In this document: positions 10,001 through 21,027 of the stretch, piece after piece
Layout: each line of letters begins with the position of its first letter
Position numbering within the stretch: the stretch's first letter is position 1
From: Cristatella mucedo
Lineage: Eukaryota; Bryozoa; Phylactolaemata; Cristatellidae
Assembly: GCA_009760855.2 (NCBI GenBank)
Contig: WPIO01000013.1
Location: forward strand, 1,462,001 to 1,526,000
Reading direction: 5' to 3'
Length of the DNA: 64,000 bases
Notes under the pieces: generated by a model
Told to the model about the DNA's origin: nothing
The model's database searches: none
Seen by the model: the letters and a program-made list of their open reading frames with translations, nothing else
Translations under genes and position numbers: made by a program

Positions 10001-13000
10001 TTTTTGAGTGCCAATTGATTGGCAATACGTGTACGATCTTCAGAATGGTTTTGTAAGCTTGCGCTCACTAGTCCTAGCTATTTTAAAGTCTGCAGTTAAC
10101 TTCTAGCTATTTGGGCGAAGGCGTACTGTGTGCTTAGATAGGATGACTAGCTGCAGATGAATTTTACTGAATAAGACTAAAAAAAAGTAAGAATCTGTCA
10201 AAGGGAATTTTTTCTGGCGATCACTCGACGATTTTATCACTACATAGCTACTCTTTGGGAAAGTTAAGCCAACTATTCCCGCTACACTCTTAGGGTTGCC
10301 GATGAGGAGAAGTCCGCTTGCCATATTTTATCTTACGTAAATTGATCGCGATTGACGTCTGAGTTTCTTGAAGACAGATATCCGGTCTGTCTTTTAACCA
10401 GGCTAATTTATGACGGTTTGAATATGTAGAGCATTAGGATGCCATCGGTCTGAAATTGATGGCGAAGTCATAGTTCCGAGCTACATTCGCTAAAGGCTCT
10501 GCGTACATGCAGATACCCGAAGGGCAAACAATAGAACCAGTGACGCGTAGTCAACGATGAGAAAGTAGTTTAACTTTAAAAACAATTTATATGCTAGTGT
10601 TAGTAGATGGAGCGACCACTGCAGCTCTTCCAGGGGGCTCCTTCATGCAGTTTCATGCAGTTTTATTGGTAGCACGCGGTTCGTGGTCGTCGTCATCAAT
10701 TTGGGATCGCACACCTGCGATACCATGACAGTTCCATAGTAGCTACGTCTGGCCGTGGCTCCAGTAGACGGGCTGGAACTGCAGTAGTCTTTTTGTGTGC
10801 CAATTGATTGGCAATATGTCTGCGATCTTTAGAGCGGTTTCGTAAGGTTGCGCTTACTAGTCCTAGCTAGTTTTAAGTCTGCAGTTACGTCTAGCTATTT
10901 GGGCGAAAGCGTACCGTGTGCCTATATAGGATGACTAGATGCACAGGAATTTTACTGAATAGAAATTTAAAAAAAGTCAGAATCTGTCAAAGAGAATTTT
11001 TTCTGGCGATCACTTGACGACGTTCTCACAACCTCAATACTCCTTGGGAAAGTTAAGCCACCAATTCCCGCCTCACTCTAAGGGTTGCCGATGAGGAGAA
11101 GGTCGCTCGCCATATTTTATCTTATGGATATTGATCGCGATTGACGTCTGAGTTTCTTGAAGACAGATATTCGGTCTATATTTTAACCCGGCTGATTTCT
11201 GACGGTTTGAATATGTAGAGCATTAGGGTGCCATCGGCATGAAATGATAGCGAACTCGCGGCTCCGAGCTACATTCGCTAAAGGCTCTGCGTAAATAAAA
11301 ATATCCCATAGGCAAAAAAACCAGTGACGCGAAGTCAATGATGAGAAAGTAGTTTAGTTTTAAACACAATTTATATGCTAGTGTTAGTAGATGGAGCGAC
11401 AGCTGCAGCTCTTCCAAAGAGCCCCTTTCATGCAGTTTTATCACGATTTGTAGGCCAAGAAAAGCATCGATCATTTGCAATTAGCTTCAGCGGACGGTGG
11501 CTGCTACACTAGTCAGCAACTCACTCAGGTAGGGGCATTGGCATTCGTTAAATTAACTATGGGCTAATGTTTTCATGAGCAGCATGCTATAAGCGAAGTT
11601 TTAATTTCCATTCCGTTGTAGCTTCACCTTTTTACGAGCTGCGCATCAGAGAACACCGGATTTACAATATTTTCCTTCTTTCTAGTTTCCAACGATGCCG
11701 TGTTTGTGGTGAGTATTTATCTATAGAGCTCTGCAACGGCACCTAGTGTTACTGTGCTAATTAATTAACAATTGCTTGTTTACATTGCTGCAGTTTACTA
11801 GCTACTGCTAAAAACTTTGATGCCACTCGGCGCCACCGGCACCTTTTACTGACGCCTAAAGTAAAAGCCACCAGGCCTCAAATTTCTCTGACAGCAGTAG
11901 ATTCAGAAAGAGAGAGAGAGAGAGAGAGAGAGAGAGAGAGAGAGAACTCTAAAAGTAACTAGGGCGCGGCCGATGTCTGGAGTGGCGACCCAGGATTGTG
12001 AATCTTGCCAGCTGCTCGCTTGTCAAATATGACAGCTGGAGACCTTGATGTCGATTTCCAGCGCCGTGTGAATAAAATAAGGATATTTTTGGTATGAACA
12101 CCTGCAGCACCCCGACTTTCTATCACCAACAACAAGGAAAGGAGCCATGCTTCACCGAACGTAGCACAATCATTTGTATGGTTTTTTAAAGTTGTCTACT
12201 CCTCCGCCTCGAGTCCCCTGCTGCACGACCCTGCGACCGTGTCCGCTAAAGCAACAAGCTGCGGTTAATTCACGCCCGCCAGCTGTCTTAAGTAACACTA
12301 TGGACATTAATAACCGAAATGAATCTGGCGATTACAGCGAAAGAAAAGTCAGTTTGCTATCATTGATGGAATACAAACTACAGAAAGAGATTTGAAGCAT
12401 TAATTTTTAATCTATTGGTACGACAATTGTTTGCTGTCTATTTCTTGTATGTTCGAAGTAGATCAGTCAAAGAAACTCGAAATCACAAAGGATTACAAAT
12501 ATGCGCGAAAGAAATCAGAAGTCAATATACATAACTATAAAAATGGCATCCATGCTCCACTCTAGAATAATCTGAATCCTCTTCTGTCTGGCATCTCTTT
12601 TAGATCTCACAGCAGCTTTTACGAACCTTGGAGAAGAAAGTTGGAAGAGCTAGCCCTCTGCAAGCTAGCTAGCGGGTATGCAAGTGTTGCGATGTGACAG
12701 TCAAATAGTTAAAAATAAAACCAGCGGCATCTACTAAAAATGAAATACCTCTCACTGCTAGCGCTGTCATGTATTTGGTCACAGCAGGGAATGCAATCGC
12801 GTACCGTAGAGCGGAGCGAAAACGGACGGACGGTCTGGTGGTGAGCGTGCGCAGTCACGCAGGAAGCAATTACTCCAGGATTGCCACAACGGGTTCGACG
12901 AATTACCGCAATCCACCGCAATCCACCGCAATCCACCGCAATCCACCGCAATCCACCGCAATCCACCGCAATCCACCGCAATCCACCGCAATCCACCGCA

Positions 13001-21027: not shown

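Follow-up and report, generated by a model that had tools for sequence, protein, structure and literature searches.

A foldback DNA transposon with kilobase-long arms in Cristatella mucedo, probably mobilised by a Mutator-like transposase

The window, a 64,000-nucleotide stretch of the Cristatella mucedo genome, carries a 6.5-kb foldback DNA transposon that is non-autonomous and was probably moved by a Mutator-like (MULE) transposase supplied in trans. As no autonomous partner with the same tips was found, we infer the enzyme, and the Mutator-like assignment is based on the length of the target duplication, the tip and the subterminal repeats. The element and its insertion site comprise the following features.

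12891-19381, no strand assigned: whole foldback element, delimited by inverted-repeat pairs, tips, the empty site and family ends
12891-16345, plus strand: left arm, including a decamer array and a SINE-like insert (inverted-repeat comparison)
16346-16913, no strand assigned: loop, with long matches to loop candidates elsewhere in the genome
16914-19381, minus strand: right arm (inverted-repeat comparison)
12891-12907, plus strand: left tip GGGTTCGACGAATTACC, reading inward (tip search)
19365-19381, minus strand: right tip, the same 17 bp, exact (tip search)
12905-13504, plus strand: array of about 59 decamers (ACCGCAATCC), in the left arm only, directly behind the tip
16009-16151, no strand assigned: SINE-like insert in the left arm, flanked by TGTCTTTTAT (15999-16008) and TGTCCTTTAT (16152-16161)
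16152-16345, plus strand: innermost arm segment, 97% identical to 16914-17107, most other blocks being about 85% identical
12883-12890, no strand assigned: left target copy GCCACAAC in the 8-bp reading (sequence and A/B alignment)
19382-19389, no strand assigned: right target copy GCTTGAAC (sequence and A/B alignment)
35079-35086, no strand assigned: single target GCTAGAAC in paralogue B, the empty site (sequence and A/B alignment)

Fourteen of 17 inverted-repeat pairs (I1-I7, I9-I14 and I16; 84-97%) are in register between 12890-16345 and 16914-19382, and the remaining three (I8, I15 and I17) are off register. The in-register blocks are separated by gaps, the largest of which is the decamer array. 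Identity between the arms is 76-95% in most 100-column bins of the arm-to-arm alignment, with one bin all gap, 97% in the two innermost bins and 91% in the third. Because the 97% stretch ends beside the SINE-like insert, it would suit a local gene conversion that halted there in this one copy. Two relatives of the insert lie elsewhere in the window, at 51535-51681 and 60093-60232. Long inverted repeats around a variable loop, short tandem repeats inside the arms, a target duplication and dispersed copies are all present, as in the foldback class of elements. The initial annotation had read this giant inverted repeat as a foldback transposon, and the register of the pairs together with the exact 17-bp tips bears that reading out. 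Its remark that no transposase is present is also supported. The element contains no recognisable gene, the decamer array aside no stop-to-stop frame exceeds 158 aa, and the best match to a Mutator-like transposase within the element and loci L001-L043 has an E-value of 0.32 by tblastn and 1.2 by HMM search. An Rfam scan returned one sub-threshold match (alphaproteobacterial tmRNA, 20.3 bits against a gathering threshold of 50), taken as chance, and no tRNA genes were found within the window.

The ends are established by a paralogous empty site, in agreement with the original proposal. Segment A (2634-22463), which holds the element, is a diverged duplicate of segment B (26940-37594). The flanks of the element match B at 489 of 570 positions on the left and 538 of 617 on the right, B carries its target once, and the letters of all three target sequences were confirmed. 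Six bp of B stay unaligned between the left-flank and right-flank matches; by eye, these six and the 8-bp target align to the left flank without gaps. A 9-bp target, GCTAGAACA, can be read at the right junction provided that one A was lost at the left junction. Because the two target copies in A agree at only five of eight positions, this locus alone cannot fix the length of the duplication.

Across the family the target duplication is 9 bp. Seven two-ended copies were compared: L022 and six others in which both tips are exact. L027, whose right tip is degenerate, was omitted, and L011 entered with its outer tip, its inner tip being left unpaired. At k = 9 the flanks match at 7/9 positions in L009, 6/9 in L010, 7/9 in L011 (outer tip) and 6/9 in L013, and at 8/9 in L022 once a one-base tip deletion is aligned (ungapped, L022 gives 7/8 at 8 bp). 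L012 gives 4/9 as it stands and fits only given a G-run gain, and the element at 12891-19381 gives 5/8 at 8 bp and 1/9 at 9 bp. The five pairs that exclude the latter two match at 34/45 positions at 9 bp, whereas the derangements have a mean of 11.0 and a maximum of 16, and none of 44 reaches the observed value. With L012 added, the count is 38/54 and is reached by 0 of 265 derangements; for all seven pairs it is 39/63, compared with a mean of 14.7 and a maximum of 21 (0 of 1854). Among the other values of k from 5 to 12, k = 6 alone beats every derangement, narrowly, with 13 vs 11 for five pairs and 15 vs 14 for six, and this excess is absent from the seven-pair set. The 8-bp reading of 12891-19381 fits either a one-base departure or an 8-bp event of a Mutator-like transposase. 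An excerpt of PMC5225508 reports that a single enzyme, Muta1, makes both lengths: of 60 sites in yeast, 21 had 8 bp and 39 had 9 bp. The 8-bp duplication proposed at the outset thus suits the element itself, but is ruled out as a family rule by the 9-bp matches over the two-ended copies.

Duplications are 8 bp long in hAT and P elements and 8-9 bp long in Merlin elements. The family duplication of 9 bp therefore argues against hAT and P and for a Mutator-like enzyme. MULEs are described, in the part of PMC6446971 available, as having long TIRs and duplications of 8-11 bp, a range that includes both the 9 bp of the family copies and the 8-bp reading of 12891-19381. The tip begins with GGG, and the tips of most arthropod MULEs start with G/C bases according to an extract of PMC13359780; this is a weak agreement, as many other tips are alike. 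Subterminal repeats of 9-15 bp occur in 10 of 12 Aedes MULE families with long TIRs, again as given in the PMC5225508 excerpt. It is unlikely that the mobilising enzyme belongs to another superfamily, be it hAT or P/Galileo (7-8 bp) or Merlin (8-9 bp). Such an origin would agree with the 8-bp reading of 12891-19381, the ungapped match of L022, a hAT dimerisation domain about 0.5 kb from one tip in L028, and the long, internally repeated TIRs of the P element Galileo (extracts of PMC3573991 and PMC3688188). However, apart from 12891-19381 and L022 (8 or 9), the copies depart from the length expected of hAT and P/Galileo, and the Merlin profile PF12762 matches the genome three times, each time on contig C3, which has none of the listed tips; Merlin was accordingly rejected. 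The domain in L028 scores 22 bits (cut-off 21.4); hAT-type ORFs occupy L028:401-2248, accompanied by a TAGGGGTG end that we take to be hAT-like. Because this end lies about 85 bp inside the foldback tip stub, the L028 hAT is read as a nested insertion and was rejected as the autonomous partner. The initial annotation had left the choice between hAT, Merlin, P and Mutator-like enzymes open; the 9-bp duplication favours the last of these, and the other three are disfavoured.

The wider search with the tip that had been recommended for finding other copies was productive. Allowing up to two mismatches, the 17-bp tip occurs 518+507 times in the 572-Mb genome, compared with 45+41 for the reversed control; when CpG decay alone is tolerated, the counts are 150+142 and 1+0, respectively. 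Thirty-four distinct ends were picked by exact tip, so that tip sharing among them is by construction; most share arm sequence inward, and their outward 12 bp differ, except at the two inner ends of L011, where the flanks are inverted copies. Loop relatives number 354 candidates, 40 of which were scored, and all 40 matched over at least 300 bp. Other family copies bear a further loop segment that is absent from 12891-19381. The family is large, old and decaying. As to whether copies end elsewhere, the shared sequence breaks off at one and the same tip wherever an end was read, but many copies are without a second tip. Two pairs of loci on different contigs are nearly alike, L040 and L041 (C479/C387, with the same flank) being near-identical and L045 and L046 (C349/C358) 99% identical, which suggests uncollapsed haplotypes or duplications.

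That the structure arose by local palindromic amplification or as an assembly artefact is scarcely credible, and is refuted for the element as a whole. Fold-back synthesis or chimeric long reads can yield long inverted repeats, and the inverted duplication in L011 takes in host flank. However, many dispersed copies share a common end, and the empty site and the 9-bp duplications also speak against it. Furthermore, the two arms of 12891-19381 show a divergence of about 15% along most of their extent, which is too much for a read artefact. Within L011:401-4144, the right end together with 46 bp of the host flank recurs in inverted orientation, at 99.5% identity, as the inner left segment. This points either to fold-back copying that ran beyond the tip into host sequence or to a chimeric read; if real, L011 shows renewal of an arm through such copying.

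The decamer array is restricted to few copies. The right arm of the element holds two decamers, 33 of the 34 ends counted carry 0-3, and five perfect decamers in a row occur at four places genome-wide. One of these places, on C683, is 3.8-4.0 kb from a facing tip, and another, on C365, is 0.7 kb from a loop relative; the fourth place lies on C442. Because the rare expansions include places near a family tip or loop relative, the array appears to be a trait of the family, with expansion confined to a small number of copies. The one-sided minisatellite of 12891-19381 resembles Rehavkus, a relative of Mutator in which a minisatellite adjoins one TIR; an excerpt of PMC6446971 places it before the 3' TIR, in elements of insect and annelid hosts. 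A Rehavkus-type element is nevertheless improbable, because the array is a rare expansion in the family.

The decamer core, GCAATC, is also spread along the arms. On the tip-to-loop strand of 12891-19381 it occurs 16 times per arm, compared with three and four times on the opposite strand of the two arms (Markov means of 2.1 and 1.8). Fifteen related arms (32.3 kb), which are kin and so not independent, contain 194 forward vs 41 reverse occurrences, with 6 to 21 per arm, and the 57.3 kb of the window outside the element contain 15 and 16. The context of the core is approximately GCAATCSACTGCAA, a decamer doublet, and weak internal repeats are present in the arms at a lag of about 175 bp. By analogy with Galileo, whose TIR repeats contain secondary transposase sites according to part of PMC3688188, the decamer-type motif is a probable, putative transposase site. 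A MULE enzyme supplied in trans would bind the tip and this motif, and would insert the element by cut-and-paste with a 9-bp, at times 8-bp, stagger. The arms may have been lengthened via inverted-duplication copying, and the array may have grown by slippage or unequal exchange. With decamers arrayed in tandem behind the tip and also scattered through the arm, this family is well suited to testing whether long foldback arms consist of repeated transposase sites.

Copies with two recognisable tips are few. Six convergent tip pairs within 12 kb are found among 164 listed tips, a subset merged from the first 100 tips with up to two mismatches, the first 100 CpG-tolerant tips and the 64 tips of a further search. 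Up to contig C49, the tip list contains 16 exact tips on the plus strand, and 15 of these were read inward, 13 of them in 9-kb loci (L016-L028) and two in the known pairs 12891-19381 and L009. A facing second tip with up to three mismatches was present in three of the 15 (12891-19381, L009 and L022), and L027 has a degenerate one. The one-tipped copies end at varied points of arm or loop; a fixed second end at the end of the loop was rejected, as the loops run on into a shared further segment. Decay, insertions and breakage of the hairpin may suffice as causes. It is rather doubtful that the arms form a kilobase-scale lattice of putative transposase sites (GCAATCSACTGCAA) with an expandable tip array, and that the lineage spreads mostly as one-tipped copies through one-ended transposition or breakage at the hairpin centre, a proposal prompted by the strand bias of 194 to 41, the six convergent pairs and the second tips in three of 15 copies.

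MULEs are resident in the genome, with 59 matches to PF10551 and 125 to a MULE protein query, the latter including a third, decayed group at 27-34% identity. Two younger families, X and Y, are clear among the 20 loci read (L044-L063), and their copies are mostly 87-96% identical, with short subterminal repeats. Examples are given below together with a MULE match that lies near foldback tips.

L051:610-2612 and L055:392-2582: MULE loci
G000:C475:2700212-2708656: partial match to a MULE, 7.8 kb inward of two foldback tips

Family X is about 2.2 kb long, with an end near GGTACTAGGACC and, by eye, 8-bp duplications in L047, L050 and L055. Family Y is about 2 kb long, ends in GGTAACCGGACAATTCG and has, by eye, a 9-bp duplication in L059. 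FLYWCH and MULE domains are combined in three of four loci tested, L044 and L063 (X) and L051 (Y), and L060 (Y) has the MULE domain alone; the combination is the Phantom arrangement as described in the excerpt of PMC3169594. Families X and Y were rejected as direct partners, as their tips differ and nothing homologous to them occurs within the foldback loci. No transposase was found between foldback-type tips. The LTR-retrotransposon ORFs of L026 were likewise dismissed as a partner, being an insertion that splits one copy, and a 334-aa ORF in L014 has no Pfam match at E 0.01. To look for an autonomous relative sharing the tips, as had been advised, 94 MULE places (the 59 profile matches and 35 further protein-query places picked by eye) were compared with the 164 listed tips, both lists being incomplete. 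This comparison gave one inner-side neighbour within 10 kb, the candidate C475 match, which is close to chance given an arithmetic expectation of about 0.3.

The initial annotation knew of no named family with this architecture, but the excerpts of the cited sources provide precedents in FB4, Tm1, Tetris and Muta1. FB4 (Foldback) of Drosophila melanogaster also has long TIRs, a minisatellite-like interior and a variable loop, and is non-autonomous, with an unknown transposase and 9-10-bp duplications, in extracts of PMC8277862 and PMC4022104. Compared by description only, its TIRs are about 700 bp long, whereas the arms here are 2.5 and 3.5 kb. Tetris of Drosophila virilis, as presented in part of PMC4079207, is likewise a non-autonomous foldback with 8-10-bp duplications, repeats within its TIRs and no autonomous copy found. 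Its unit, however, is 220 bp and its TIRs reach 1,735 bp, whereas here the tip-side unit is 10 bp long and the arms are longer. Tm1 of root-knot nematodes, a Phantom MULE, shares composite TIRs with variable 13-15-bp repeats and duplications most often of 9 bp, and one copy contains a FLYWCH-MULE transposase; arms of several kilobases are not among the features described in the excerpt of PMC3169594. By eye, Tm1 is closer to the resident family Y than to the foldback, and its motifs that resemble the family Y end are CGGTTAA and GGA, followed by repeats of about 14 bp. Muta1 (Phantom) of Aedes aegypti, termed a type 2 foldback in the PMC5225508 excerpt, has 8-9-bp duplications and a short terminal motif with tandem 12-bp subterminal repeats, but its TIR is 145 bp and it is autonomous and active. 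Galileo, of the P superfamily, has long repeated TIRs that were lengthened by recruited or duplicated sequence and carry extra transposase sites, according to extracts of PMC3573991 and PMC3688188. It differs in its 7-bp duplication, its THAP transposase and its TIRs of up to about 1.26 kb.

To the known foldbacks this adds a large family whose target duplication has been measured at 9 bp and in which one insertion has a clean empty site. The very long arms of 12891-19381, each with 16 decamer cores on one strand, its one-sided array and the few two-tipped copies in the family are unusual, and the arms exceed the TIR lengths of 1,193, about 1,260 and 1,735 bp quoted in excerpts of PMC13359780, PMC3573991 and PMC4079207.

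The foldback sits in an intron of the taste-receptor-like gene A, given as intron 3 in the initial annotation, with the first exon on one side and the presumed last exon on the other. Two parts of the gene are located as follows.

2789-4051, plus strand: ORF of gene A, a paralogue of 27115-28353 in B, neither having a Pfam match
20980-21006, plus strand: TYFLLILQF motif in a translated exon-like stretch, the presumed last exon of gene A

This exon-like stretch is mirrored in B at 36115, and we take TYFLLILQF in both copies to be a gustatory-receptor signature. The ORF at 53318-54595, a relative by eye, matches 7tm_7 (chemosensory receptor) with 26.1 bits and an E-value of 6.8e-06 (cut-off 26.6). 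The part of A at 20824-22463 is 96% identical to B at 35959-37594, whereas the other long A/B matches are 84-90% identical, which suggests a recent conversion or a separate event. A repeat family is also present in the window in both orientations, at about 6594-9054, 24127-25726, 44085-51532 and 55315-58232, and its copy at 24365-25726 carries a reverse-transcriptase domain (RVT_1).
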